A DNA stretch of 20,077 nucleotides, taken from a virus. The notes under the pieces were generated by a model, which was not told where the DNA came from, ran no database searches, and saw only the letters and a list, made by a program, of their open reading frames with translations. The stretch spans positions 1 to 20,077 of the IMG/VR virus record IMGVR_UViG_3300006072_000070; one strand, given 5' to 3'. The position numbers and the translations under genes were made by a program. Positions 1,777 through 20,077 of the stretch are shown one piece after another (position 1 is the stretch's first letter; every line of letters begins with the position of its first letter).

Positions 1777-2411
1777 TGAATGTTCCCCGCACTGGTTGAA
1801 CTCACTCCATTAGCTGCGTTTTGCGCCGTTGGTTCTTGTGGCGATACTTGGCCGTTCGAAGTTGGGGATTCTCCATCAGGTTGAGCGGTTGGAGCGTTAG
1901 ACGTTACGATTCTCACCCACTGGAACCAAAGTTTAGCAATGATTAAGGTTGCGCCATTTCGAGCTTCGCGCCTGTAATCGACATGAACAAGGTTAACGCT
2001 TGTATAGGTCTTCCCCGGAGTCTGAATGTCCAAAAGCGTTAATGAGGTCAGAAGCTGATTCAAAGTGTTGATGAAGTTATCCTTTTGCATCGGACCATTT
2101 CCGCTGCAAGTAACAGTTACTCTGATTTCATAAGGCAAGCTGACCTTGTTGTAGCTGGCAAATGCTCCAGCCTGTAATGGATAAATAGGAATCTTCTGAT
2201 CTTGCTTGAATTCAAAGTCAACAAATGAATCTGGAACCAATATAACCGTTCCGGTTTCATTGTCGATGATTGCCCATTGCTGCCCAAATAAGTCAGTAGG
2301 AAGAAACTGGGCAACAACCGCCAAAGCAGCGCCTACATATTGAGCGCCAGTTCTGCTTAGAGGCGGGACTCCGGGAAGCGGAGGAACGTTAGGATAAGGG
2401 ATAAGTGGCAT
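1773..2411 (-). CDS. Dit-like baseplate/tail protein
   Basis: The 212-residue product starts with a proline-rich segment (MPLIPYPNVPPLPGVPPLS), then a beta-rich core: WAIIDNETGTVIL, DSFVDFEFKQDQKIPIYPLQAGAF, SYNKV, a helical segment NFINTLNQLLTSLTLLDIQTPGKTY, and VDYRREARNGATLIIAKLWFQ. This arrangement (SYNKV, helix, TP-x-TY, R-A-x-NGA) matches the Dit-like N-terminal family that rings the end of the tail tube. The last ~40 residues are low-complexity (Ser, Thr, Gln, Pro, Asn) and look disordered. The start overlaps the tape-measure stop by one base (TAATG), and a GGGG-containing purine run lies about ten bases upstream. Placement directly after the tape measure agrees with a distal-tail role. 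Confidence 0.72.
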   Translation of the reverse strand: MPLIPYPNVPPLPGVPPLSRTGAQYVGAALAVVAQFLPTDLFGQQWAIIDNETGTVILVPDSFVDFEFKQDQKIPIYPLQAGAFASYNKVSLPYEIRVTVTCSGNGPMQKDNFINTLNQLLTSLTLLDIQTPGKTYTSVNLVHVDYRREARNGATLIIAKLWFQWVRIVTSNAPTAQPDGESPTSNGQVSPQEPTAQNAANGVSSTSAGNIQ

Positions 2412-4216
2412 TATCTAGGCCCCTGCATTCCAGCGTTGACAATTTGATTAGTTTTTATGCTTTCGCCAATGTCTTTGGCAATACCCTTGGCATCAGTCGC
2501 TTGAGTGTTTACATCTATTTTGCCAATGTTGGTCTCAATAATCGTACTTCCCCCTCTTCCTAAATTGGGAACCATTGAAGATGCTCCAAGTGGCATATTT
2601 GGCATGGATTGGGTGATATTTGAAAGATTCATTATCGAGTGCAGAATGGATTGACCAGCTCGGTTGTTGGCATCAATCGCCATTTGCCCATAGTCTTTCC
2701 AATCTGAAACTGATTGATCCCAGAATTTATTTAATAGAGCCCTTTCTGGGGGTTTCCCTGACGATTCTGGGCCGGGGCTAGTTGCTCCAATAGGAGTTCC
2801 CAAAGGAAGTGGAGCGGAAGGTTTAGATGACTTGCCCCAATTGCCACCTTCGAATCGAGTCATTGCATCCTGAACTGCCGAAAGCTCTTCTGGAGTTAAT
2901 CTCTTATTTGGATCAATTCCAGTTTGTTTTGAAACAAAATCAATGTAGTTCTTTGTGTTGTTGTCATCAACACCGGGAGGAGCCCATTTATTGATGATGC
3001 TTGAAATCGTGTCTTTCCCGCCTTTCATGTAACTGGTAAGCAAAGCATTCATTGCAGCTTTGCCAGTTTCCATATCTGGAAATACTGCAAATGGACCTTC
3101 TTGACCTATTGCGCCATGAGCTTTGGCAAATTCCCCATATTTAATGTTTCCGGGGTTTTTGTTTCGGATATTTCTGGATGCGCCTTCACCACCCATCTGA
3201 GCTTCACGAAGCTTTCGTAGCTCTTCGTCTTCCCCTTTATTCAATTCTCCAGAATGAAAGATAAGTCCAGCCGTTCCCAAAGATTTAAGCATCCACTTAG
3301 GAGCAGAAAGCCCCAATAGCTTCATAGCGCCCGTGAGAGAGCCAAGGGCAGCAGCAAATGCAAGAGTAGTGGTGAGGCCACCATTTAGAGTTTTGTCCCA
3401 TTCTATGAACAACCGGAGGCTTGCTTCTGTTAGTTTGGCTAACTCCATCATGGATGGATTAAGCTGATCTGTTATCTCATTTTTCGCAGCATCCATTGCG
3501 CGTGAAACATCACCCCATTTCTTTTGGAGCGCTGCTGCTGCTTCAGTGTTTTTATTAGTAACTCCAGAGCCTTTCTCAGCCTCTTGGTAAAGGCTTTGCA
3601 CTGAAGCCGAGCCTTCTTTAAGAACCATGAACAATTCGCGGTTTACGCCGATTGCCTGAGCTTGCAAGAATGCAGTCTCTTCGCCGTAAGTGTCGGTGAA
3701 TTTTTTAATGGCATCGGCCAGTTTTAGTACATCGACCTTCTGGGTTTTAATGTCTACAGCATCAGTAGCCCCAAGAATGGCCAAAGGCTTGAGGATTGCT
3801 GCATCGCCAAATTGAACAGCGGATAATCCTTGCTTGATGCTTTGCATTGAGCCTTGAAAGTCGGAAGCATCGCCACCAACCGATTTCATGACTTGGCCCC
3901 AAGCATCCAATTCCGTAGCTGACATTTTGAACAGTTGAGCTGTCCTGCCAATGTTTGCGTTGGTTGTGGTCGTATCCTTGATTATGTCCTTAAAGCCAGT
4001 CATCCCGACGATAGCTGTGCCTAAAGAGAGCAGAGCGTCACGGGTTTTTGTAAACCCATCACCGAGGTCGTTTACTCCTCGCTGGGTATTCTTGAAGGTT
4101 TTGGTAGATTGATCGTCGAACTTCCGAAGCTGATCGACTGACTTTTTTTGTGCAGTGCTGAACTTGGACGTATCCAGCCCAAGCTCAATCATTAAACTGT
4201 CAATAACCGTTGCCAT
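2411..4216 (-). CDS. Tail tape measure protein with lysozyme-like domain
   Basis: At 601 residues this is the largest tail gene and follows the tail chaperone gene, as tape measures do. It starts MATVIDSLMIELGLDTSKF, the usual opening of tape-measure proteins, and has long helical N-terminal segments (about 20-270) and a hydrophobic Ala/Gly/Leu region near 280-320. Residues about 347-458 form a peptidoglycan-hydrolase-like domain: RNIRNKNPGNIKYG, then GAIGQEGPFAVFPDMETG and INKWAPPG, ending RFEGGNWG. This resembles virion-associated muramidase/transglycosylase domains that help DNA pass the cell wall. A Pro/Ser-rich linker (462-490) and a C-terminal region follow. The length implies a fairly short tail. 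The ATG abuts the frameshift ORF stop (TAA-ATG) and has only a weak ribosome site, so coupling is likely. Confidence 0.88.
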   Translation of the reverse strand: MATVIDSLMIELGLDTSKFSTAQKKSVDQLRKFDDQSTKTFKNTQRGVNDLGDGFTKTRDALLSLGTAIVGMTGFKDIIKDTTTTNANIGRTAQLFKMSATELDAWGQVMKSVGGDASDFQGSMQSIKQGLSAVQFGDAAILKPLAILGATDAVDIKTQKVDVLKLADAIKKFTDTYGEETAFLQAQAIGVNRELFMVLKEGSASVQSLYQEAEKGSGVTNKNTEAAAALQKKWGDVSRAMDAAKNEITDQLNPSMMELAKLTEASLRLFIEWDKTLNGGLTTTLAFAAALGSLTGAMKLLGLSAPKWMLKSLGTAGLIFHSGELNKGEDEELRKLREAQMGGEGASRNIRNKNPGNIKYGEFAKAHGAIGQEGPFAVFPDMETGKAAMNALLTSYMKGGKDTISSIINKWAPPGVDDNNTKNYIDFVSKQTGIDPNKRLTPEELSAVQDAMTRFEGGNWGKSSKPSAPLPLGTPIGATSPGPESSGKPPERALLNKFWDQSVSDWKDYGQMAIDANNRAGQSILHSIMNLSNITQSMPNMPLGASSMVPNLGRGGSTIIETNIGKIDVNTQATDAKGIAKDIGESIKTNQIVNAGMQGPR

Positions 4217-4812
4217 TTATGCTTGACTCGCTAAGTTTGCGTTATGTCTATCAATGGCGTTGATTTCAAGGAGAATCCATAAGTCCTCAACACCATAAAC
4301 GGTATCAAGCTCATGGAGTGTTGCAAGCCTTGCCGAGATAACCGTTGCTATCGTTTGTGGCGTGGCTTGATATTCGATGAGCCGATTGTTGCGCTTCCCT
4401 GTGCTTCTGATTCCGAAGTCGATTCTTTTGCGTCTAAAAAAAAATCCGTGTGAAGATCAAAAACAGCCTTCCGTAAGGCTAAGCGGGTCTTCACTTCTTC
4501 AATATCATCTTCAATCAATACACGTTTAATGTTGGGGGAGGGAACTACCTGAATACAACCCATCATTTCATCCAGAAGAGGCTTTGCAGCATCAAATGGA
4601 ATTTTGAGAAGATTCAAGTAGCCCACCGCTAGGAGCCCCGCCATTCCCTGAGCTGCTAAGTGGTCTGGAATTTCAATCCCAGAGTTACCTATAGCAAGAA
4701 TAAGCTTAAAAGCCCAATTCTCAGCCTGTGAAGCGGACATTTCGGTAATGTGGAATTGCTTCCCTGCATCGCGCCCGAAGTCCGCTGTGAATGACGTTTC
4801 CTTTCTAGCCAT
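4217..4812 (-). CDS. Tail assembly chaperone, GT-type product made by -1 frameshift
   Basis: This is the predicted long product of the tail chaperone gene. Reading starts at 4812, follows the 0 frame for 126 codons through the TTA at 4435-4437, slips back one base at T-TTT-TTA (4435-4441) and continues for 72 codons (RRKRIDFGIR... to ...NLASQA) up to TAA at 4217-4219, giving about 198 residues. The extension has no start codon of its own near its beginning, fills the gap before the tape measure exactly, and its end touches the tape-measure ATG. It contains TVISARLATLHELDTVYGVE and LWILLEINAIDRHN, a helical pattern typical of second-frame tail chaperone domains. By analogy with lambda gpG/gpGT, it would bind tape measure and recruit tube subunits. 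Frame and stop positions are seen; use of the shift is inferred. Confidence 0.75.
4348..4812 (-). CDS. Tail assembly chaperone, short (G-type) product
   Basis: This is a 154-residue protein with an alpha-helical N-terminal domain: MARKETSFTADFGRDAGKQF, ITEMSASQAENWAFKLILAIG, then IKRVLIEDDIEEVKTRLALRKAVFDLHTDFF. The tail ends in a low-complexity Ser/Glu stretch that looks unrelated, as expected for residues after a frameshift site. The frame is open up to an ATG at 4845, but MARKETS at 4812 is the likely start because the longer version would add an unlikely YYWWANL segment overlapping the tube gene. The tube stop is only two bases upstream (TAAAAATG). Position between tube and tape measure, plus the -1 extension, supports a tail assembly chaperone. 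It would keep the tape measure soluble during tail assembly and is not expected in the virion. Confidence 0.8.
   Translation of the reverse strand: MARKETSFTADFGRDAGKQFHITEMSASQAENWAFKLILAIGNSGIEIPDHLAAQGMAGLLAVGYLNLLKIPFDAAKPLLDEMMGCIQVVPSPNIKRVLIEDDIEEVKTRLALRKAVFDLHTDFFLDAKESTSESEAQGSATIGSSNIKPRHKR
4435..4441 (-). promoter_or_regulatory. Programmed -1 ribosomal frameshift site (U UUU UUA)
   Basis: The mRNA reads GAU UUU UUU UUA GAC in the chaperone frame. The last seven bases of the U run plus A form U-UUU-UUA, a classic X-XXY-YYZ slippery heptamer. A one-base back-slip leaves the ribosome in a frame open for 72 more codons, ending one base before the tape-measure ATG. No obvious strong stem-loop was seen just downstream; the long U run alone may suffice. 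Confidence 0.75.
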
Positions 4813-4814
4813 TT

Positions 4815-5246
4815 TTAGATTTGCCCACCAATAATACGTTGCCAAGTAATCTCATAAACAAGAGGTTCTAACGTCCGCTTAACACCTGGGAACGGAGTTG
4901 CAGAGGTCAAGAATCCGTTTACCAGAGTATAAACCATGCTCGTTGATGGAAGCGTGATTGATCCACTAGCAGAGAAAACATCAACTGCAGCGTCCTGAGC
5001 GTTGCGCCATGCGTCGAACAGGAACACGCTGGGGCTGTCTGCCTGAAGATGAATAGTCATCTTGTATGGGACAAACACCTTGCCAGCGCTCAGCTTGCCG
5101 TCTACGCCCATAAGGACTTCTGACTGCTCTACAGCTTCACCCTCGAAAGCATCATCCACTGCAAAGCCTTGGATCGTCTGAGGGACCGGAAAGTAATTAT
5201 TGACCGCTAACGAAAGGATAGCGTTTGCTGAGGTAATAGTTGCCAT
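4815..5246 (-). CDS. Major tail tube protein
   Basis: This 143-residue beta-rich protein follows the sheath gene. It starts MATITSANAILSLAVNNYFPVPQ and contains IQGFAVDDAFEGEAVEQSEV, MGVDGKLSAGKVFVPYKMTI, SPSVFLFDAWRNAQ and a C-terminal YEITWQRI. The pattern matches the tail-tube (fibril, DUF3277-like) proteins that accompany DUF3383 sheaths. It would form hexameric rings stacked around the tape measure. The start has a good AAGGG ribosome site overlapping the sheath stop (AATAAGGGACTGAAATATG), nearly identical to that of the major capsid gene, consistent with the need for high expression of both. Confidence 0.85.
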   Translation of the reverse strand: MATITSANAILSLAVNNYFPVPQTIQGFAVDDAFEGEAVEQSEVLMGVDGKLSAGKVFVPYKMTIHLQADSPSVFLFDAWRNAQDAAVDVFSASGSITLPSTSMVYTLVNGFLTSATPFPGVKRTLEPLVYEITWQRIIGGQI

Positions 5247-5262
5247 ATTTCAGTCCCTTATT
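5244..5262 (-). promoter_or_regulatory. Ribosome binding region of tail tube gene, near copy of the capsid one
   Basis: The leader AATAAGGGACTGAAATATG includes the sheath stop TAA, an AAGGG Shine-Dalgarno and the tail-tube ATG. The major capsid gene at 10152 has AATAAGGACTGAAATATG, the same except for one G. No other start in the window shares the GACTGAAAT spacer. Confidence 0.7.
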
Positions 5263-6748
5263 GAATTGCGATTGAAGCCATAACGATCTGCTGAACCGCC
5301 TCACCATCCTGATAATACAGAGTGATTGGAGGAGATTGACGAGCAGCGCGGGTTTGAGCCGTTGCTGGCAGAATCTGCAGATAGTATCCCTGTGAGGCAA
5401 TCGTTGGCGCAGCATTCACGCCAGTTGCAAACTGGATCTCTGCAGCCTGAGCAGCAGATACATTGATTCCAGTCCTGATCGCGCCAAAGTTAATCGCTGA
5501 GTTGATTGGATCCTGTGCAGCAGCATAGATCAAGCCGTTACCCTGAGCATTGTAGGGAACTGCAGTTACCTGAGTCAGCAAGTTGACCATAGCCAACTGA
5601 AGGTTGGCATTGAGCCAAATCTGGTTCAGGTAAGTATCAGCCCAGAGCCATTTGCCAGAAACAGAGCCCGGAGCAAACCAGTTCTGATTATTGGCTGGGT
5701 TGTTGCTTCCCCAAGCACCATAGCAGTTGTATCCATTCGAAAGGACTGCAGCGTACTGGGTAGAGTTTGTCACTGAAGGAACAAGTCCAGATTGTGACTT
5801 GAAGCAAAGCGTGGCTCTACCGTTCAAACGGGCAAAGTCGAGAGAAGCAGCATACCCACAAACAAAAGCAGCGTGAGTGTAATCACCAAAAATCGGACAA
5901 GCCCCAATGATCTGGTTCGTTTGCAGCCAATCGCCAAAGGTATTGGTTGCTGATGCGTTTAAAACATTCACGTCTGAATCTTGGCAAACGTAAAGATAGC
6001 GCGGAGCTACTGAATTGCTCCAAGTAGCAAATGCTTCTTTTTCTGTGATGTTCGCTTCCCAAACAGTCATAAACGTGGCCCAGTTCTGATTTAACGTCAG
6101 GACGTTAGCCATAAATGAAGCAGGTGTACCAGCAGCAGCGCCCTGAGACAGAGTTGCACCCGTTGCCTCAGTCAGCATCAAAGAGGTTGCCAGAGTTCCA
6201 GTAGCTGCATAGCTCATGGTCTGGGTTGCTCCAGTTGCGGTTGTAGTAAATACAAACGTGCTTAATGTTGCATTGTAGGTAACGGTAAATCCGGGGGACG
6301 TAAACGCTGCCTGAATGATTGTTGCAGCATTGCTGAAGCTAGTTGCTGAGGTAAGATTGATCGTGCCTGATGTTTTAGCTACTCCAGCAACCGTAATGGT
6401 TAACGTACCCGTTAAAGCCTGAAGCTGTCCAAGCGTCATAGACGAAAGTGAACCACTCATCAGCCAACCAGCAATTGCTGCTTCTGGATACTGCGTGAAA
6501 TAGAGCGTTCCGGGCAGTGCTGTGCAATTCGTGAAGCCGTCAAAGTAAATGTTGGCAATTGCAGCTTCGGTTGAAGACGCGCCAAAATAACTCTGAACGC
6601 CAGCAGCGTTTGAGAAAGTCAAAATTGATCCATAAGGAGCTGAGACGTTCTGAGTAAGCACAAGACCGTTAAGATCGACTGCTTCTCCATTCGCGGACAG
6701 AACCGAAGGAACAACATTGACAACTTGAGAAAAAGGAATGGTACTCAT
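5258..6748 (-). CDS. Contractile tail sheath protein (DUF3383 family)
   Basis: The 496-residue product resembles the DUF3383 sheath family. It begins MSTIPFSQVVNVVPSVLSA, then has VLTQNVSAPYGSILTFSNA and VQSYFGASSTEAAIANIYFDGF, as expected of the sheath core. Residues about 105-215 form an inserted beta-rich domain (TLTITVAGVAKTSGTINL, then ATGATQTMSYAATGT). The core resumes around WATFMTVWEAN, and the C-terminal region contains TAVPYNAQGNGLIYAAAQDP and a final strand (QSPPITLYYQDGEAVQQ) that would join the neighbouring subunit. The sheath contracts to drive the tube through the envelope; its presence shows that this is a myovirus-type tail. A clear AGGAG ribosome site lies at the upstream gene's stop, five bases from the ATG. 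Confidence 0.9.
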   Translation of the reverse strand: MSTIPFSQVVNVVPSVLSANGEAVDLNGLVLTQNVSAPYGSILTFSNAAGVQSYFGASSTEAAIANIYFDGFTNCTALPGTLYFTQYPEAAIAGWLMSGSLSSMTLGQLQALTGTLTITVAGVAKTSGTINLTSATSFSNAATIIQAAFTSPGFTVTYNATLSTFVFTTTATGATQTMSYAATGTLATSLMLTEATGATLSQGAAAGTPASFMANVLTLNQNWATFMTVWEANITEKEAFATWSNSVAPRYLYVCQDSDVNVLNASATNTFGDWLQTNQIIGACPIFGDYTHAAFVCGYAASLDFARLNGRATLCFKSQSGLVPSVTNSTQYAAVLSNGYNCYGAWGSNNPANNQNWFAPGSVSGKWLWADTYLNQIWLNANLQLAMVNLLTQVTAVPYNAQGNGLIYAAAQDPINSAINFGAIRTGINVSAAQAAEIQFATGVNAAPTIASQGYYLQILPATAQTRAARQSPPITLYYQDGEAVQQIVMASIAIQ

Positions 6749-9009: not shown

Positions 9010-9054
9010 TTACATCAGGTATTGAGGGCAGTCTATAAAACCACCCCTAGCCAT
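9010..9054 (-). CDS. Possible 14-residue micro-ORF coupled to the capsid gene stop
   Basis: The capsid stop is TAATG, and the ATG opens a 14-codon frame, MARGGFIDCPQYLM, ending TAA just before the hairpin. The TAATG link is the same coupling signal used by several real genes here. No function is known to me; it may be chance. Confidence 0.2.
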   Translation of the reverse strand: MARGGFIDCPQYLM

Positions 9055-10154
9055 TAGATGCCTGAGTAACGCACAACAGCATAAGGTCGCTTCAGAAGTA
9101 CGCCAGCAGTTGCGTTGCTGTAGTCTTCTTCGTAAGCCTTAGCCTGTTTCTCTACGCCGAGAGCTTGGAACTTGGCAGGTACAACTTGAACCCAAGTACG
9201 GCTATCGTCGCTTGCGCCATCTTCAACTTCTTCCGCATACAGGTAGAACACGTTAGCGCCACCGTTTGCGTAATTGAGCTGAGGAGCAGAAATAACGCGC
9301 AGCTTTGGATAGGTCTTGTTCAACCAGTCACGAACCGAGATACCGAAGTCAGAAGTTACTGACAGGTACTGATAAGCATCGGTTGGCAGGGCCAGAGTAA
9401 GCTCAGCACTTTCTGGGTTGATCGTGTCCTGAGACTGGGTTTGGAGCTGTGCAGCAGCAACCCGAATGTCAGCAACGATCTGCAAAAAGGTTTTCGTACT
9501 CCAAAGCGTAGAACCGCCCGTTCCCGTTGCAGCAACGGTCACATAAGCGGGTAGACCCGGATCATTCAGGAAACCATACGTCAGGTTGCTACCGTTGTTG
9601 AAACCGTAGAAGCCGACGAGGTTACGCTGGATTTCAAGAGCCAGAGCAGCAGAAGCGCGTTTTTCAGCAGAAGAGCTGATACGGATACGAGCTGCACGAG
9701 CTTCTTCAAGCATACCAACCTTGATGCCCTTTTCGAAACGGACAACCGTTCTACGGACAAAGTTGGTGTTCCAAGAAGCAAGGGGGACGTTCGTGTAATC
9801 GCCATAAGGAATAGCGTTACCGATTGGCTCCAAGAGGCCCTGTACGATTTCCTGATCTTCCCATGAGCCAGTCGTGGAAATACCGCAAAGCTCGTCGATT
9901 TTACGAGCTGCAGTTACAACCTTGACGAAACCGGGAAGCCAGTTCTGAAGGAACTGAACAGGAGTCGTGATGCTAGGCTGGGATACATCGGCCTGAGTAT
10001 CCATTGCATAGTTGGCCATAGCGCGGATGTTCTTCGCGCCAAAGTTAATACCGAGGTCTCCGAGTGCAGCGTAATCGGAAACATCATCGGCAGACATTTG
10101 GACCGCACGAACATCGCGGGGTCCAATAAAGCTGCGTTCGAGAGAGTTGCTCAT
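9054..10154 (-). CDS. Major capsid protein (DUF2184-type, HK97 fold)
   Basis: This 366-residue protein carries the pattern of the DUF2184 major capsid family. The N-terminal arm (1-60) is followed by MDTQADVSQPSITTPVQFLQNWLPGF and ITTPVQFLQNWLPGFVKVV, then ARKIDELCGISTTGSWEDQEIV, an EPIG-NAIPYGDYTNVPL segment and RRTVVRFEKGIKVGMLEE. C-terminal strands include YPKLRVISAPQLNYANGG and LKRPYAVVRYSGI. It would assemble as hexamers and pentamers on the scaffold encoded two genes upstream. The start has a strong AAGG-type ribosome site in a leader shared almost base for base with the tail tube gene. No long N-terminal delta domain is present, in keeping with a separate scaffold. Confidence 0.9.
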   Translation of the reverse strand: MSNSLERSFIGPRDVRAVQMSADDVSDYAALGDLGINFGAKNIRAMANYAMDTQADVSQPSITTPVQFLQNWLPGFVKVVTAARKIDELCGISTTGSWEDQEIVQGLLEPIGNAIPYGDYTNVPLASWNTNFVRRTVVRFEKGIKVGMLEEARAARIRISSSAEKRASAALALEIQRNLVGFYGFNNGSNLTYGFLNDPGLPAYVTVAATGTGGSTLWSTKTFLQIVADIRVAAAQLQTQSQDTINPESAELTLALPTDAYQYLSVTSDFGISVRDWLNKTYPKLRVISAPQLNYANGGANVFYLYAEEVEDGASDDSRTWVQVVPAKFQALGVEKQAKAYEEDYSNATAGVLLKRPYAVVRYSGI

Positions 10155-10682: not shown

Positions 10683-11246
10683 TTATTTACCTTCCAAGAA
10701 ACGTGAAACGAAATTGCCCTTACGAGCGACAGGAGCAGAGTCCATGCCAGAACGTGAAGGAGCACCCTTGCCCATAAGGTATGCCTCAAGGAAAGTCACT
10801 CGTGACTCTTTCGAAACATCCAAGCCAAGCTTTTTACAGCCATACTTTGCCATCTTGCTCAGGTCCATTTCAGAGTGATCGAACGCTCCAATATGGGCTG
10901 AAAGCTTTTCGTATAGCTTATTCTTTTTCGCGATTGAGAGCTGAACGCTTCTAGCAATAGCTGCAGCGTCCATGCCTTCGCTCCTTTCGCCTTCCTTTTC
11001 TTCAGATTTCTGACCGCCTACGCCGTATTGTGGGCCTTCTTCGTCTTCAGTTACTTCAGGCTTATCCTCTAATGGAAGATCACCTTCTTCGTCATCATCG
11101 GAAACAGCTTCCGCACCAGCAGAACCAAATTCTTGGCCTGTGAGCTGCTGAATCTTTGCCAGCTTTGGCATGACTTCTTCGAGGAATTTATGCACTTCCT
11201 CCAAAGTCATTGGGCTCCCGCCCATTTCTTTGTTTTCTTCAGCCAT
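10683..11246 (-). CDS. Putative scaffold protein from an in-frame internal start
   Basis: Codon 372 of the protease fusion is an ATG preceded by AAGGAG nine bases upstream, the best ribosome site in this part of the window, although it lies inside a coding frame. Starting there gives a 187-residue protein ([18 protein letters not shown]...) that holds exactly the acidic, helical C-terminal region and nothing of the protease. Phage lambda makes its scaffold Nu3 in the same way from inside the protease gene C. The free protein would be made in excess over the protease and drive capsid assembly. The start and site are seen; separate production is inferred. Confidence 0.6.
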
Positions 11247-12359
11247 GTTAATGAACTCCTTATTGTCTACAGTGAAAGTAAAATGGTCTAAAACCGCCAC
11301 ATCGGGGCCCATGCGTCCGTTATCGACAAGGGCTAGATGATTGCCCCGAATGTCCCGTTGAATGTAATCATACTGCATTCCGTCATAAACGCCGGGGGAG
11401 TATTCATACCTGCAGCGGTATCCGCATGACAATTCTTTTTTCCCGCTAGCAATGAGGTTGGCCATTGCTTCCGAGAATACCTTGATATTGCCCTTTAGGG
11501 TCATTCCGTCGAAATGAACATCTTGTCCAATAACGCCCTGAACGCCCTTTTGCTCGGAAGGAGTCAATCCAGCATCTTCACTGCCAAGCATAGTATGGTT
11601 ATCAATCCAAGGAATAAGTTTAAACGAATCAACGCAATCCGACGAGCCCAGCTCCTCAGCAGGTCTATAAACCATATAGATTTTGTTTGGGTCGCACTCG
11701 TCGGAAATCGACCGACCAGAATAAGGGAATACCCCTACCATTGAGAGAGGGTTATCTTTTACTTCGAACCACCCGTTTGTATCGTATTCTCTTTTATCCA
11801 TTGCCGAAGCGTTCGCTTCAGCAGCTTCCGCGATTTTCTCTTCATCCCCGTCAATCTTCGGAAACAACGGTTCAGGTGCATTCTCGATGGATGCCCAAAC
11901 ATAATCGCTGTGCTCGTCATTCAGTTCTGGCTCGAATTCGCCATCATTACATCCAAAGAGTCGAACCTTGCCTTCTTCATAAATCAGGTTAATGCCTGTC
12001 TCTGGGACGTGCATGGTCTCTTCTCTCGACTCGCGAATAGCGCTTTCAATCGGAGATTCTCCTTCTTCAACGTGACCACCGGGAAACCCCCAGGTATCAT
12101 CCTTGGTTCTTTTCATCCAAAGGATTCTGTCACCGTCCGTATAAACGATAAACGCCACAATTTCTGAATCGGGCTCTTCTTTAAGGTCTCTCTTGTGAGA
12201 TTCAATCTCTTCTTCGGTAAGCTCTTCATCAACACCGTGGCACTTACGGGCATTTGAATAAGCAATCGCCATTGATTGCTTAGGGTCATGTCCAGCTTTT
12301 ATCAATTCGCGGATGTTGTTCTGAATCGTTTCTTTTGAATAACCTTCTTTAAGTGGCAT
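10683..12359 (-). CDS. Nudix hydrolase - DUF2213 prohead protease - scaffold fusion
   Basis: This 558-residue protein has four parts. Residues 1-40 ([20 protein letters not shown], then [13 protein letters not shown]) resemble a small domain found alone in other phages. Residues about 64-180 are a Nudix hydrolase with the box G95-x5-E101-x7-R109-E110-x2-E113-E114; the usual hydrophobic residue and Gly after it are Ser111 and Met116. Residues about 185-365 are a DUF2213 prohead protease: WIDNHTML (His255), GVQGVIG, LSCGY (Ser311) and [16 protein letters not shown]. His255 and Ser311 are candidate catalytic residues. Residues about 372-558 are acidic and helical ([20 protein letters not shown], poly-acid 419-461, a basic C-terminus) and look like scaffold. 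The start overlaps the upstream stop by one base (TAATG). The protease should mature the head and remove scaffold; the Nudix role is unknown. Confidence 0.85.
11256..11261 (-). promoter_or_regulatory. Strong internal Shine-Dalgarno for the nested scaffold
   Basis: AAGGAG lies inside the codons for Asn-Lys-Glu of the protease fusion, nine bases before the internal ATG at 11244-11246, exactly at the end of the DUF2213 domain. Confidence 0.6.
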
Positions 12360-12724
12360 TAGATAACCCTCCCTGTCTGGAAAGGAATGTTCGTGACATT
12401 CAACAAAACGGTAGCTTCACGAGTGTTGCCTTCGTTCGTATCAAAAAGTGGACGAATGGTATAGATTTGATTGGTTGATCCAGTTGGAACAACACCTTCA
12501 GAAATTTGAACAGAAATGACTTTACCTGCTGGAGCAGTGATCCCATCGGGAAAAGTAACAGGTGAAGAATTAACTGCAGAAGCAGAAAAAACCAGACCTT
12601 CTTGATCTGCCGTTATGCTCAAGATTGAAGTGATGGTTTCATTAGTGTCTAACAAATTGGTGCAGTCAATGTCATACCAAATGATTTCACTCGTCCGTTT
12701 CTCAAGAATGTAAGTGTTACTCAT
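12359..12724 (-). CDS. Small beta-rich phage structural protein of unknown function
   Basis: The 121-residue product starts [20 protein letters not shown] and runs through [39 protein letters not shown] and [22 protein letters not shown]. The layout, an Ig/FN3-like string of strands ending in EATVLLNV, is common in unnamed phage virion proteins. The frame is open up to an ATG at 13003, but that would run antiparallel in content to the end of the repeat gene; the start at 12724 is preferred because it follows GGAG five bases upstream and overlaps the repeat-gene stop by eight bases (ATGAGTAA). It may be a partner or cap of the repeat protein, or a head decoration protein; this is inference from position. 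Confidence 0.65.
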
Positions 12725-14219
12725 TGGGTCTCCAAAAATACTGTCTTGGGCTTGCTTGCCAATAGTATAATCTTTTCTCAGCAAAGCAGAAATCTGGCCT
12801 TTGATCCATGCGCCAATAATCTGGCCTCTCCGAAATGCATTCACACCAGAAAGTTGGCCTTGGCCCCAAATGCCAAACCTTCTCGCTGCTGTTGAAAATT
12901 GGAGCGCAATAGTAAACATCAACCGCATTCCCTTGCTCAATGACGGCAAGAACCAAATAAGTAGATTCAGATTGAGCATCAAGTACATGGCCAAATTCAT
13001 CAACCTGAACCGCTGCCGTCAGTATCTGTGACTGGATATCAGCAGCGCTTGTCGTTTCCGTTACTATAACCGATGCGCTCATGTTTTGAGCAACAAAATC
13101 AATGGCTTCTGCTAATTCCATTTGCTGCAAGTAAGCAGTCATCTTATTAGATGCAAAATCACTTGCTACACCTGATTCAATGATGGCTAAAAGTGACGTT
13201 GTAAGTTGCGATTGGAAATCTAGCGCATTCGATGATTCTTTAATGTTTAAAGAGGCTGTAACGTTTTCCGTGTTTGTGTCTACCGCCAAGCCATTTTCTG
13301 CAATTTGAGCAAATGCAGTCATGTTCTCATTTGCAGAATCAGCAAATTTTGTCGTTTCAGCTATTAAAGATGAAGTAGACATTTGTTCTAATTGAGAATC
13401 TGCAGAAACCGTTGATTCAAAAATGTTGACCCCATCAACGGAATTCTCTGAAACTTTATCGACTGCTGAGGATGATTCAATGACTGCATTAGGGGCGGTC
13501 ATGGCCTCTAAAACAGAATCTATTGCTTGAGAAAATTCAGCCTGTGATACCGGAGCAGTCATGTTTTCTGATTGACTGTCCCTAGCAGAAGCCGATTCAT
13601 TGATTGATACGGGTCCGGTTGTATTCTGTGATTGAGAATCTGAAGCCGATAATGCTTCGGCAATCGTTACTGGGTCCGTTGCATTTGCAGATTCAGAGTC
13701 GATTGCAGCGCCAGATTCAGCCAACGTAACGGAAGCCGTCATCCCATTTGATTGGCTATCCTGTATCAATACCAATTCGGCAATGCTAATTGGGGCGGTC
13801 ATGCTTTCTGATTGAAGATTAAAAGCATTTATGAACTCCGCAATTGATGCGGAATCAGTGGAATTTTCTAAAACAAAGTCAATTGATAGTGAATTTTCAA
13901 CAATTAAAACTGAAGCGCTCATTGATTCAGAATATGAATCTAAAGCTTTTGCAGATTCTGATATAGCTACTGAAGCAGTCATTGATTCTGACTGGGCATC
14001 TACTGCTGTAGACGATTCAGTAATTGCTACAGGATCATTGGTGTTTTCATAAAAAACATCAGCGGAAGAGGCGGATTCTGCAATAGATAAAGCACTTATC
14101 GTGCTTTCGCTTTGGATATCCGATGAAGAAGCAGATTCCGTTATTGTTACCCGATAATAGGTAATTGTAAGGATGTTTCCTGATATTGGATTTGATGATA
14201 ACGGGTTATTGCCAAGCAT
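12717..14219 (-). CDS. Repeat fibre-like protein: 21 x 20-residue repeats with aromatic C-terminal tail
   Basis: This 500-residue protein has a short leader (1-19, MLGNNPLSSNPISGNILTI), then 21 consecutive units of exactly 20 residues (20-439) with no insertion or deletion. The consensus is roughly MTASVxIAESxxAxDSQSEN. Glu at unit position 9 is present in all 21 units and Asp at position 15 in 20 (Asn in unit 6). Hydrophobic residues alternate at positions 5-7, suggesting strand-turn units of a solenoid or stacked beta structure. Residues about 449-500 hold a different repeat of 9-11 residues (RPTFW, RPDYW, RPDFC, RLYYW, RQYFW), rich in Trp, Tyr and Arg. No Shine-Dalgarno is clear. Lying after the fibre chaperone it is probably a virion surface fibre; a sugar- or surface-binding tip is a guess. 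Similar 20-residue repeats occur in other phage proteins, as far as I recall. Confidence 0.75.
   Translation of the reverse strand: MLGNNPLSSNPISGNILTITYYRVTITESASSSDIQSESTISALSIAESASSADVFYENTNDPVAITESSTAVDAQSESMTASVAISESAKALDSYSESMSASVLIVENSLSIDFVLENSTDSASIAEFINAFNLQSESMTAPISIAELVLIQDSQSNGMTASVTLAESGAAIDSESANATDPVTIAEALSASDSQSQNTTGPVSINESASARDSQSENMTAPVSQAEFSQAIDSVLEAMTAPNAVIESSSAVDKVSENSVDGVNIFESTVSADSQLEQMSTSSLIAETTKFADSANENMTAFAQIAENGLAVDTNTENVTASLNIKESSNALDFQSQLTTSLLAIIESGVASDFASNKMTAYLQQMELAEAIDFVAQNMSASVIVTETTSAADIQSQILTAAVQVDEFGHVLDAQSESTYLVLAVIEQGNAVDVYYCAPIFNSSEKVWHLGPRPTFWCECISERPDYWRMDQRPDFCFAEKRLYYWQASPRQYFWRPNE
12903..14162 (-). repeat. 60-base in-frame tandem repeat array, 21 units
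   Basis: The array encodes the 20-residue units of the repeat protein. Units are diverged in DNA but phase is perfect: TCA/TCN-GAT-like and GTC-ATG-like positions recur every 60 bases. Units 4, 5, 7, 8, 11, 12, 14, 15, 18 and 19 begin with Met. Confidence 0.9.
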
Positions 14220-17535: not shown

Positions 17536-18363
17536 TTAATCCTCTAAATCAAAGTTGATGACAGGTTTACAAATGCAACGGCAGTAGGGCAAATCTCCCG
17601 GCAACCCTCGAACTTCCTCACCGTACATTACACCAATAACAGGAGGATCGTCGAAGGAATACTCATTCCCCGACATTCTAATATGGTTAAGCCTTGGTTC
17701 TTTGCTCCCGCCAGTATGCACCCAAATAAACTTCTTTACTCCCAATGACTTGAGGCGAGAAGTATTTATCGACTGATACGATTTGCGCGTCTGATCTAAA
17801 GCGACATTCCGCGCATGACGAATATTGCCATTGTATTTCTTTGTAAGGAATGGTACTAGGTCTTCCATCCCCTTTCCTGTCGTAATGCTCCGCATAACCT
17901 GTCCCTGAACTTCAGCAAGGTATTTTTGCGGTATCAGTTTGATTAGATTTGCAGCTTCTTGGGTACTGGCTTTGATGACATCGTTAATTTGTTCGTTCCT
18001 AAAAGACGTGTCAATCCTAAAGTCTTCACTGGCGTCTTTTAATGATAAACCCAGAGTTACCGCTGAATTTCGGATTGTTCGCTCTATCATGCGGTCTGTA
18101 GAGCTCTTGGCTATCTTATTGAAGCGCTTTCCCCACTTAGCTATAAGATAGTTAATCAGAATTCTGGCTTGGCTTGAAATAGAAGCATCCATTCCATAGC
18201 CAAAGTGATTTTCCTTAAAAAGCTTTTTTAGCTCTCGTTCGACATCGCGAGACATCAATTCAATTAGATTGATGGTCGGTTTTGAATAGTCGGCAGCAAT
18301 ACTGGCATTGGGACGCAATGCACCACCAACTAATCCGTTAGTTTTATTTTTTGACTTTGCCAT
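17536..18363 (-). CDS. MuF / SPP1 gp7-like minor head protein
   Basis: The 275-residue product is helical in its N-terminal two-thirds (including KSSTDRMIERTIRNSAVTLG) and ends with the phage Mu F / SPP1 gp7 signature: RHARNVALDQTRKSYQSINT (182-201), FIWVHTGGSKEPRLNHIRMSG (about 212-232), then a proline-glycine stretch LPGDLPYCRC (254-263). The key pattern is an ARxxA-like helix with D-x-TR, W, PRxxH and a Cys-Arg-Cys end. These proteins bind the portal, enter the head and may be ejected with DNA. No extra toxin-like C-terminal domain is present. Its start overlaps the portal end by 20 bases and lacks a clear Shine-Dalgarno, so it is probably coupled. Confidence 0.88.
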   Translation of the reverse strand: MAKSKNKTNGLVGGALRPNASIAADYSKPTINLIELMSRDVERELKKLFKENHFGYGMDASISSQARILINYLIAKWGKRFNKIAKSSTDRMIERTIRNSAVTLGLSLKDASEDFRIDTSFRNEQINDVIKASTQEAANLIKLIPQKYLAEVQGQVMRSITTGKGMEDLVPFLTKKYNGNIRHARNVALDQTRKSYQSINTSRLKSLGVKKFIWVHTGGSKEPRLNHIRMSGNEYSFDDPPVIGVMYGEEVRGLPGDLPYCRCICKPVINFDLED

Positions 18364-20077
18364 ATTTATGCGACAAAGGTTTATTCAATCGAATGTTTGC
18401 CGACTTTATTTCTGATTCTAGTTTTTTAAACCAAAGAGTGTCGCCATAATTTGACAATGCCGAATTATAAGGTTTTATGTATGGTTTTTCTTCATTTTCA
18501 AGTTTTATTATGTTGTTTTTTTTCTCATCTGTAAGATCTGAAAAAAACTTACCTTGCGATTCTTTGGAAATTGCAGATGCAATTTCATGTTTTGCTGCAT
18601 AGTATTTTAATAAATCTTCTTTGACGTGGCTTGCATTTACCCCATCAATCCCAGCTTTTTCTGCATTTTCATTTTTTAAAAAATCCCACAAAGAAAATGA
18701 TTTTTCCAATTCATTCTTTAATAAAGAATATTTTTCCCCAATTTCCTTGTGAACTGAATGCTCTTTGTCATCGTTTAAATTGGTTTCTGTTTCTTTTTTT
18801 GCTGGCTTCTCTTCCGATTTAGAAGATGCTTCACCACCGCCAGAGCCAAACTGGCCGTTCTTTGCTCTTGAATGTTTTCCTTCTTCCCATTTGGCAGCGT
18901 CCATAGCGTCTTTAACGCTGTTAAAATCTTCATCCGCTAATTCTTCGCCTTCTATTTCTTCAGGCTCATTTTCTAGGATTCCAATCTCGTTGTATCCACT
19001 TTCTTTGTCAGTAGCCAATCGTTGCCTTTCGTCTTCGCTGCTAATGGCCCCAGACTGGATAAGCACTTGGCCAGCCTGAGCCTTCATCATATTGGTCCGA
19101 GCCAGTTCTTCAGCCGTTGGGGTATCCAATGGCAACCAGTTAACGGCCAGCTCATAGTCAAGCCTCTTCTTGAGCTGGGGCTCAACGAATGACTTAACCA
19201 CAAGCCGATGATGCCGTTGCAGCAGGGGAGTGAGATCATTTTCTTGGATTGATTCAAGCAGCTCATGATAACTGGCTTCTTCATATTCGCCCGTAGCATT
19301 AAAGCCTTTAGGGGAGGTTCCAAGAAGCTTGGTAGCGGGTACGCCAGCGATTGCAGCAACTAGTTGATACTGAGTCATGATAAGAGCGTCAAAGTCAGCA
19401 AGGCTCGTGTCGAACTGCTGGAATTCGTCTGCTTCCTTATCACCAAGCTTGATGCCGTAGTTGTCGCGATACGCTGCCCATTGCTGGAGTCGGTTAATCG
19501 CTGCTGTAGTGTCTGACATAACGGCTTCCATATCGGTCAACCAGACAGTTGTGCGCTTCGACATAGCCAATTGAGGAGCTTCATTCGAAGTTCTCTCTGC
19601 AGCGTATACACGCTCCATGATCTGCTGAGTTAAAGGTACACCGCCATAAATGTACATTGGCTTTAGTACGTCTACGGGCTCAGCATGACGGAAAATAATT
19701 AAATGACTTCTATGGATCTTCTTCCCGTTTATGATCCAGTAGGTTGGCTCGTAGAAGTGGAGCGTGTCAGGCTGACTTGAAGCAGCATTATCAAGCCAAG
19801 GAGCGGTCCAATAGGGGTCAACCTGAACAATGCCCTTGTAGCTGTTTGGCGTAACACCGTCGATATTGAATGGTTTCTCATAGTATTGCGGATCAGTCGA
19901 TTGGACCTTGAACATCGCAATTCGAATACCGAAGATGCGACCCTTGCGGATGAACTCCCGCATTTTGAATTTGACATTAAACGCTCGGTCGTAAGCTTTG
20001 AGGATTTTGTAAGCATCGGGGTCCAGCTCGTCTCCATTATCCGTTGCTATGTTGTAGCCTTTACGAATGGCATCATC
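18344..20077 (-). CDS. Portal protein (DUF1073 family) with unknown C-terminal extension, N-terminus outside window
   Basis: The frame is open to the window edge (578 codons); translation starts outside. The visible N-terminal part (DDAIRKGYNIATDNGD, DPDAYKILKAYDRAFNVKF) joins the core: RKGRIFGIRIAMFKV, HRSHLIIFRH, VYAAERTSNEAPQLAMSKRT and AIAGVPATKLLGTSPKGFNAT, with YHELLESIQENDLTPLLQRH and AVNWLPLD. These are marks of the DUF1073 portal family, a 12-subunit ring through which DNA enters and leaves. After residue AKWEEGKHSRAKNGQFGSGG (about 18840-18890) comes an unrelated Ser/Glu/Lys-rich linker and about 130 residues of helical sequence (SLWDFLKNENAEKAGIDG to LNKPLSHKYGKVKK). This part is markedly AT-rich. 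I do not know its function; the H-x-R-x-x-x-GQFGSGGG linker is shared with other phage proteins. Confidence 0.85.
   Translation of the reverse strand, partial: DDAIRKGYNIATDNGDELDPDAYKILKAYDRAFNVKFKMREFIRKGRIFGIRIAMFKVQSTDPQYYEKPFNIDGVTPNSYKGIVQVDPYWTAPWLDNAASSQPDTLHFYEPTYWIINGKKIHRSHLIIFRHAEPVDVLKPMYIYGGVPLTQQIMERVYAAERTSNEAPQLAMSKRTTVWLTDMEAVMSDTTAAINRLQQWAAYRDNYGIKLGDKEADEFQQFDTSLADFDALIMTQYQLVAAIAGVPATKLLGTSPKGFNATGEYEEASYHELLESIQENDLTPLLQRHHRLVVKSFVEPQLKKRLDYELAVNWLPLDTPTAEELARTNMMKAQAGQVLIQSGAISSEDERQRLATDKESGYNEIGILENEPEEIEGEELADEDFNSVKDAMDAAKWEEGKHSRAKNGQFGSGGGEASSKSEEKPAKKETETNLNDDKEHSVHKEIGEKYSLLKNELEKSFSLWDFLKNENAEKAGIDGVNASHVKEDLLKYYAAKHEIASAISKESQGKFFSDLTDEKKNNIIKLENEEKPYIKPYNSALSNYGDTLWFKKLESEIKSANIRLNKPLSHKYGKVKK

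Follow-up and report, generated by a model that had tools for sequence, protein, structure and literature searches.

A virus contig of 20,077 bases (IMG/VR record IMGVR_UViG_3300006072_000070, positions 1 to 20,077, analysed over its full length and called the window below) carries a gene that joins in one frame an N-terminal module, a Nudix hydrolase domain, a predicted prohead protease of the DUF2213 family and an acidic scaffold. We propose that the product is a head-assembly polyprotein with an enzyme cargo that is freed by the polyprotein's own protease, packaged, and active at infection. We consider this reading evenly poised between right and wrong. It builds on the short motif [AGS]MD at the joint between the Nudix domain and the protease, on a nested start of the scaffold, and on relatives in which the Nudix domain is missing or replaced.

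In their passages on these domains, Iyer et al. (2022) describe phage Nudix domains fused to MuF, to the portal and to a capsid-processing serine peptidase, propose packaging and injection, and link phage Nudix domains to the countering of defence signals derived from NAD and ADP-ribose (PMC9503650). Since that paper states the fusion and proposes its packaging and injection, the two main ideas of an earlier note on this gene, made from the DNA letters alone (the original prediction), are already published, and the fusion is not new in kind. New here are the cassette history, a specific cleavage prediction and the nested start.

Domain composition of the fused protein

The gene is a single minus-strand frame of 558 codons, with its ATG at 12359, its stop codon at 10683-10685 and a GGGAGG ribosome site ahead of the start codon. 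The four-module anatomy given in the original prediction is borne out in every part by Pfam, PHROGs and fold comparisons (coordinates are in Table 1). Among the PHROGs profiles, phrog_2423 matches residues 1-40, and residues 19-435 are collinear with phrog_3778, annotated "head maturation protease". Taken alone, residues 1-185 still give a weak match to phrog_3778 (24.3 bits), so this family may already hold fused members.

The Pfam NUDIX profile matches residues 68-165 (E 7.2e-15, 55.6 bits, cut-off 21.1). The consensus of the Nudix box is G-x5-E-x7-R-E-U-x-E-E-x-G-U. In our protein it reads G95-x5-E101-x7-R109-E110-x2-E113-E114, invariant in the 15-sequence alignment A1; the catalytic REXXEE is intact, and the U-G-U positions S111, M116 and H117 are degenerate. 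The catalytic glutamates were thus predicted correctly, and the bounds of the domain are corrected to about 63-168. The Nudix fold, predicted for residues 64-180, is recovered: Nudix-fold structures match the AlphaFold2 model over about residues 56-190 with VIA-align Z of 14.2-17.1 (50 PDB entries among the matches listed), and Foldseek agrees. The predicted local distance difference test (pLDDT) values of the model, averaged by block, are 76-86 over residues 71-160 and 67 over 161-170. By modelled fold and catalytic core we assign residues about 63-168 to the Nudix hydrolase superfamily. All 17 NCBIfam matches of this part are far below their cut-offs, so the subfamily cannot be named. Naming a substrate class was attempted and given up: sequence matches in NCBIfam and PDB are weak and scattered over enzymes such as RppH, MutT and Ap4A hydrolase, and the best fold matches, nearly equal in Z, are of differing enzyme type. 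Therefore we claim no substrate.

The Pfam DUF2213 profile matches residues 190-359 (E 4.5e-43, 147.6 bits, cut-off 22). A separate model of the protease, built from 54 sequences, has a pLDDT of 93.8. VIA-align places it with T4 gp21 (5jbl_A; Z 10.2, root-mean-square deviation 2.6, 127 residues aligned) and with herpesvirus proteases (varicella-zoster 1vzv, Z 8.2, 109 aligned; pseudorabies, 8.1; others about 5-6.5). Foldseek alone gave nothing under E 0.001 for this model, its best match being the Epstein-Barr virus protease (E 0.06); the match to T4 gp21 comes from the second look with VIA-align. Herpesvirus proteases have a His-Ser-His pattern, which the conserved H255, S311 and H341 fit; these residues are unchanged in all 54 sequences of alignment A5, with identity down to 33%. 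A5 consists of the window and 53 of 54 listed loci, the partially matching L256 being left out (L numbers are our labels for loci). Alignment and model together point to a predicted prohead protease with the fold of T4 gp21 and the herpesvirus proteases.

For the full-length model, 123 complete frames (64 distinct) were reduced to 33 representatives. Its mean pLDDT is 65.2 and its predicted template modelling score 0.31. At the joint (residues 185-194) and in the stretches 351-386 and 402-463 the pLDDT falls under 50, so the protein is modelled as domains on flexible linkers.

The [AGS]MD motif and predicted cleavage

The motif [AGS]MD occurs six times in the five head proteins of the window, against 0.71 expected from shuffled sequences, and twice in the other 17 proteins (1.23 expected). 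Of 28 non-redundant fused proteins, 25 have it between Nudix and protease, with 0.96 expected from shuffles. Ahead of the protease it was also found in both proteins that have only the N-terminal module there, and in two of 38 bare proteases, a group that includes the contig-cut L037, L039 and L244 as well as L214, in whose N-terminal extension the motif lies, far upstream. For these counts 231 frames were reduced to 68, and L176 was dropped as redundant.

Other head proteins of the relatives carry the motif as well: 51 of 60 non-redundant major capsid proteins (MCP; 64 motifs, 6.2 expected), 33 of 55 portals (41 motifs, 11.6 expected) and 20 of 52 MuF-like proteins (28 motifs, 6.2 expected), totals that are inflated by homology, the MCP and MuF sets being complete frames only, reduced by k-mer similarity. 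Among 400 classes of the form [AGS]XY, ranked over portal, MuF, protease and capsid proteins, MD comes first in the window and in L186 and third in Bcep781. In four phages pooled it is the top class, with 19 occurrences against 2.8 expected, in 14 of 16 proteins.

As their structural descriptions state, the capsid proteins of phages E217 and Pa193 were modelled from residue 66 onward only. In the PB1 capsid protein and the Pa193 capsid chain, [AGS]MD stands at residues 62-64. The first 93 residues of the Pa193 portal are reported missing from the density and from liquid chromatography-mass spectrometry (LC-MS), and the related PB1 portal has [AGS]MD at 74-76. Because the motif is enriched in head proteins, lies at the visible start of the capsid protein and recurs in most fused linkers, we predict that the protease cleaves itself at the Nudix-protease joint. 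The suggestion in the original prediction that the Nudix part is cut free inside the prohead thus gains indirect support from the motif at the joint and before the first visible capsid residue, while cleavage itself stays a prediction. In the literature searched, which bore on cleavage only in part, we found no cleavage rule for DUF2213 proteases.

Several observations weigh against this proposal. Three of the 28 linkers lack the motif (AQD in L186, ALD in L095 and L102). The bare proteases are an unmatched control, many with only 5-15 residues before the core and hence less room for a motif. The residue after the joint motif is mostly K, R or L, and that after capsid sites, in 41 snippets hand-picked from capsid rows, mostly D, A or S. 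The motif cannot mark a cut site everywhere: VAMDQTRK, repeatedly found deep within MuF, looks structural. The tape-measure protein and a tail-region protein of the window have one motif each. The motif is missing from the MCP and portal of Bm1, from nine of the 60 MCPs and from the fusion proteins of the phages PdC23 and QDWS, and in PB1 MD is outside the top six [AGS]XY classes. According to the authors of the E217 study, the first 65 capsid residues may be cleaved or disordered, and those of the Pa193 study could not tell whether gp24, a relative of our protein, is cleaved. We found no virion data for any fused member. Finally, the joint Met may be left over from a former start codon, as in L199.

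The last point is part of an explanation in which the enrichment is unrelated to cleavage, the joint Met being an old protease start codon or a structural residue and the capsid motif being kept by homology. The deep conservation of MDKREYD, present in L033 after only nine residues, and the Met with which L199 starts at the same column both fit it. It has to contend with the near absence of the motif from bare proteases and with its recurrence, within a single phage, in head proteins that are unrelated to each other. L210 and L212 have AAD or AQD at the usual place and carry [AGS]MD about 21-23 residues further upstream in the linker, so there the joint Met is not simply an old start codon. 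A ribosome site is missing at M187 (none in 29 of 49 frames, four or more bases in four of 49), and for this reason an internal start yielding a Nudix-free protease was rejected. We regard the explanation without cleavage as unlikely, though far from negligible.

Nested start of the scaffold

The protein read from the ATG of codon 372 begins MAEENKE, and the site ahead of this codon (Table 1) was compared across the 52 of 65 frames in which it is recognisable. Six or seven bases match in 44 of the 52 and at least four in all of them; among 939 other internal Met codons, used as a control, at least six bases match in five and at least four in 110. Where K367 and E368 are present, the Lys codon is AAG in 27 of 27 cases (42% of Lys codons in the genes) and the Glu codon is GAG in 19 of 27 (27% of Glu codons). 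In a wider set of DUF2213 genes at least five bases match in 42 of 64, against 17 of 617 in the control, a figure flattered by taking the best of several candidates. Since a strong internal ribosome site precedes codon 372, the scaffold is probably also made alone and in excess. The Nudix-bearing full-length molecule would then be a minority species, co-assembled through its scaffold tail.

Proposed fate of the Nudix domain

Like head-packaged injected effectors, the Nudix domain is encoded in a head cassette and fused to a head protein. According to our proposal, the gene would yield a full-length product with all four parts and, from the second in-frame start, the bulk of the scaffold alone. 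Full-length molecules, in the minority, would be drawn into the prohead by their scaffold tail, and the DUF2213 protease would become active there. Its [AGS]MD targets would lie in the capsid protein, in the scaffold and on the N-terminal side of the protease itself. The released piece of ~186 residues, N-terminal module plus Nudix, would stay in the head with the DNA and enter the cell at infection. The Nudix domain would then hydrolyse a nucleotide-diphosphate-X substrate, for which ADP-ribose-type defence signals, NAD-type compounds and dinucleoside polyphosphates are candidates. Computation shows the architecture, the folds, the intact catalytic residues, the strong purifying selection, the cassette pattern, the enrichment of the motif and the internal ribosome site; that the internal start is used, that the motif is cut and that the Nudix piece is packaged and ejected is inferred, as is the substrate. 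Action on a nucleotide signal at entry, suggested in the original prediction, is conjectural in the same way. If the joint is cut as predicted, the enzyme cargo of such phages is measurable, its release, packaging and early action can be tested in cultured hosts, and [AGS]MD is a specific, falsifiable cleavage rule for a widespread head-protease family.

Selection on the Nudix domain and its other placements

In a comparison of 11 close sequences that includes the window, the Nudix domain has a median omega of 0.057 and the protease one of 0.067; the scaffold has 0.161 and the N-terminal module 0.152. These are rough values, with synonymous divergence (dS) near saturation; of 55 pairs, 27 were usable for Nudix and 40 for the protease, the others being saturated or too close. 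The Nudix part is under purifying selection as strong as that on the protease. The fused copy is the sole Nudix of the record in 11 of 12 relatives' records, and the twelfth (L176, 43.8 kilobases (kb)) has no Nudix match at all.

Nudix domains also occupy other places in head cassettes. In Burkholderia phage Bcep781 the Nudix domain is at the C-terminus of the portal (gp17), and in Bm1 it is a free gene between MuF and the protease. A second family, phrog_6216, has Nudix ahead of a diverged protease-like region (L115, PdC23, QDWS and, by similarity, Chronis and Yersinia phages). The middle region of L115 matches phrog_530 weakly (E 8e-4) and has no Pfam DUF2213 match; the DUF2213 score is 30.0 bits in PdC23, over the cut-off, and 17.7 bits in QDWS, under it. 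In the record OM046621 and four related Yersinia phage records (H121-H125), the protein that matches L115 residues 22-553, Nudix included, overlaps an annotation as "glycosyl transferase".

These data bear on whether the Nudix domain acts instead in the cytoplasm late in infection, in pool cleaning, RNA 5' end processing or signal removal. The fusion would then secure late stoichiometric expression, and any packaging would be incidental. The free gene of Bm1, which needs no scaffold fusion, speaks for this reading; purifying selection says only that the activity matters. Expression alone, however, hardly explains fusions to several virion-interior proteins (the protease here and in PdC23, the portal in Bcep781), and [AGS]MD at the joint also speaks against it. 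We consider a purely cytoplasmic role quite unlikely.

Relatives of the window differ in what precedes the protease. In L033 (70% identity in the best segment; a 12.5-kb contig) the neighbours match on both sides, and the N-terminal module and Nudix are missing. This bare protease also occurs in other loci. L163, L170 and L176 have the N-terminal module and the protease without Nudix, L186 and L187 have Nudix without the N-terminal module, and L159 has the N-terminal module with Nudix of another type; different Nudix types fill the slot in L159 and L186. In the Nudix tree four of 20 inner branches are starred and 11 are open; the ten main-clade rows fall together (82/93, open), apart from L186, L159, the T4-like NudE and the phrog_6216 and Bcep781 rows. 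Independent acquisitions are suggested, and the tree is too weak to count them. Judged from these comparisons, the Nudix domain is a cassette: relatives have the N-terminal module and protease only, a bare protease, or Nudix of another type. Because relatives with the same protease-scaffold have none, it is probably not required for head assembly as such.

The same relatives argue against a role in assembly, in which Nudix would bind or hydrolyse a nucleotide to time protease activation or packaging and the joint would stay uncut. Nudix adjoins the protease, and its box residues are invariant throughout A1, as such a role would have it. However, L033, L163, L170 and L176 share the protease-scaffold without Nudix, L176 within a record that has none anywhere, and the Nudix types in the slot differ between L159 and L186. 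We find a timing role improbable.

The packaged-cargo proposal can be extended. The DUF2213 protease-scaffold may be a general loading platform for virion enzymes, with an N-terminal slot (in L253, the protease-scaffold joint) for exchangeable cargo edged by its own cut motif [AGS]MD. A domain landing in the slot would be drawn into the prohead by the scaffold tail and released on maturation. We hold this extension tentatively, as somewhat more doubtful than not. Nudix would be the commonest passenger found, and LPD3 (L253) and a ~400-residue region (L214) may be others. If the platform exists, [AGS]MD would be the consensus at which the protease cuts capsid protein, portal and scaffold across a large group of phages. 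The L253 protein (2065-3909; an Elusimicrobiota metagenome-assembled genome, MAG) has the LPD3 domain between protease and scaffold. The L214 protein (3831-6290; Gallibacterium anatis) has an N-terminal extension of that length without a Pfam match, another possible cargo.

Recurrence of the fusion

Three scans of viral relatives were made, which share many contigs and whose related sequences are non-independent. In the first set, no stop interrupts the matched frame in any of 43 loci. Of these, 26 begin with MP and exceed 520 residues, as does the window, 16 end at a contig edge, and L033 is unfused. A Nudix-seeded scan (best 80 of 81 relatives) gave 69 loci chosen for Nudix (L046-L114), 64 with Nudix and protease in one frame and five stopping short of the protease. 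Nine further loci (L115-L123) have Nudix without a match to the protease profile, of which L115 and L116 were examined further. Seeding with the protease instead, and examining the 78 new loci from the best 80 of 92 relatives, we found 64 of them fused and 14 unfused.

In bacterial genomes 4 of 48 loci are fused, and in each of the four both Pfam profiles, NUDIX and DUF2213, score above their cut-offs. They come from a bog Eremiobacteraeota MAG (58% identity and the same architecture as the window protein), Curvibacter lanceolatus ATCC 14669, Paraburkholderia panacisoli, with a probable GTG start, and Rhizobium freirei PRF 81. The last three are prophage-like loci of cultured hosts. In L212 no ATG precedes the Nudix domain, and the GTG at codon 33 is the likely start.

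Nudix directly before DUF2213 is thus found in dozens of contigs, in these bacterial loci and, in a divergent form, in PdC23. The original prediction called the fusion unusual, which holds in part only, such fusions having been reported already by Iyer et al. (PMC9503650) and occurring also in the prophage-like Curvibacter, Paraburkholderia and Rhizobium loci and in Pantoea phage PdC23. A sequencing error or chimeric assembly that joined two genes, for which we found no supporting point, is refuted by the same fused frame in many assemblies and isolate genomes, the four bacterial loci among them, and by the stop-free matched frame of all 43 loci of the first set, and has a negligible chance of being true.

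No cultured phage among 50,697 INPHARED records has the same full architecture: none of 730 matched records covers 80% of the query in one place. The same coverage was reached by none of 436 matched records with residues 1-191 as the query and by none of 746 with the Curvibacter protein. A plasmid search matched 61 records, none covering 80%.

Gene neighbourhood and features

The Pfam-based gene order around the fusion is Phage_portal_3, Phage_Mu_F, the fusion, Phage_cement, a Major_capside-type capsid protein and a DUF3383 protein, which we take to be tail-sheath-like. An integrase above the cut-off was found in none of 12 records, which may be incomplete; there was one sub-threshold match.

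Table 1 Positions in the window of the parts of the fused gene and of the [AGS]MD motifs in head proteins
Feature	Position	Strand	Basis
Fused gene, N-terminal module - Nudix - DUF2213 protease - scaffold	10683..12359	minus	558 residues; Pfam, PHROGs
N-terminal module, residues 1-42, phrog_2423 (no function assigned)	12234..12359	minus	PHROGs E 8.6e-19
Nudix domain, residues 63-168	11856..12173	minus	Pfam; fold matches; omega 0.057
Nudix box, residues 95-114, catalytic glutamates	12018..12077	minus	key residues invariant in alignments A1/A2
A186-M187-D188, predicted self-cleavage site between Nudix and protease	11796..11804	minus	25/28 fused linkers; alignment columns
DUF2213 prohead protease domain (predicted), residues 187-360	11280..11801	minus	Pfam; model; fold matches
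H255, candidate catalytic residue	11595..11597	minus	invariant in 54 sequences (A5)
S311, candidate catalytic residue	11427..11429	minus	invariant in 54 sequences (A5)
H341, candidate catalytic residue	11337..11339	minus	invariant in 54 sequences (A5)
Internal Shine-Dalgarno TAAGGAG, 9 nucleotides ahead of the ATG of codon 372	11256..11262	minus	conserved across frames vs control Met codons
Acidic scaffold region, residues 372-558, predicted also as a separate 187-residue product	10686..11246	minus	internal start evidence
G462-M463-D464, second [AGS]MD, in scaffold	10968..10976	minus	motif search
G538-M539-D540, third [AGS]MD, near C-terminus of the fusion	10740..10748	minus	motif search
A50-M51-D52 in the N-arm of the major capsid protein (gene 9054-10154), predicted cleavage site	9999..10007	minus	E217/Pa193 comparison
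[AGS]MD in portal (gene 18344-19963), ahead of C-terminal extra region	18899..18907	minus	motif search
[AGS]MD in MuF-like protein (gene 17536-18363)	18187..18195	minus	motif search; Pfam Phage_Mu_F

The C-terminal region of the portal (18344-18907, minus strand), after DAMDAAKWEEGKHSRAKNGQFGSGGG and directly behind [AGS]MD, is a possible second cargo. The sequence DAMDAAKWEEGKHSRAKNGQFGSGGG is presumably a linker of the type found with accessory domains of phage proteins.

The minus-strand gene 12717-14219 lies two genes upstream of the fusion's partner region. Its product, 500 residues long, consists of degenerate repeat units of ~20-25 residues (SESMTAPVSIAES-like, by eye); in the DNA of this gene, no array was detected by Tandem Repeats Finder. 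The likely counterpart in L033 (3341-3652) has only 103 residues and few units, so the repeat number may vary greatly.

Comparison with known systems

The fusions of Iyer et al. embody the same idea and are of the same kind as that of the window, proposed head packaging included; their passages on these fusions give no cleavage site, nested start or cassette history (PMC9503650). Another paper, in the portion that concerns us, mentions Nudix and prohead peptidases separately (PMC7824862).

In phrog_6216 (L115; Pantoea phage PdC23 gp4; by similarity Klebsiella phage Chronis gp4 and Shewanella phage QDWS gp44) Nudix precedes a DUF2213-like region and a long tail, as in the window, and the gene likewise adjoins the one in the MuF position and precedes the capsid gene. 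Unlike the window protein, these proteins lack the N-terminal module and have a much diverged protease, with no [AGS]MD in the PdC23 and QDWS fusions. Bcep781 gp17 and Bm1 also have Nudix within the head cassette, but on the portal C-terminus or unfused, and the protease is separate.

Pa193 gp24 (PDB 9b40) and PB1 gp22 are protease-scaffolds of the same DUF2213 family as that of the window, but without Nudix; phmmer matches the window protein to 9b40_G with E 7e-49. Although the Pa193 paper names gp24 a putative scaffolding protein and its main text never uses the word "protease", by its sequence gp24 belongs to the DUF2213 protease family. According to that paper, LC-MS detects gp24 in mature virions, and residues 286-326 of gp24 lie bound inside the five-fold vertices. 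PB1 gp22 (L207 4272-5669) is a DUF2213-type protease-scaffold, like the gp24 seen inside the Pa193 capsid. The annotated start of PB1 gp22 (L206/L207) is probably misplaced, since the 13 in-frame codons ahead of it (MAKSKRKIDENGY) match the N-terminus of the family and 9b40_G.

In lambda C/Nu3 an in-frame internal start yields the scaffold alone. The window resembles it in the nested protease/scaffold start with a ribosome site; lambda has a protease of another family and is not known to have an enzyme cargo there. The T4 internal proteins and the P1 Dar proteins are packed in the head and ejected with the DNA, and in T4 the targeting pieces are cut off by the prohead protease. T4 Alt is described as an enzyme packed in the head and ejected with the DNA, in a paper whose sections on polyvalent phage proteins treat them as a wider class that includes the LPD3 domain (PMC5512222). 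Alt, the T4 internal proteins and P1 Dar are separate proteins with their own targeting sequence, unlike the Nudix domain of the window, which is joined to the protease.

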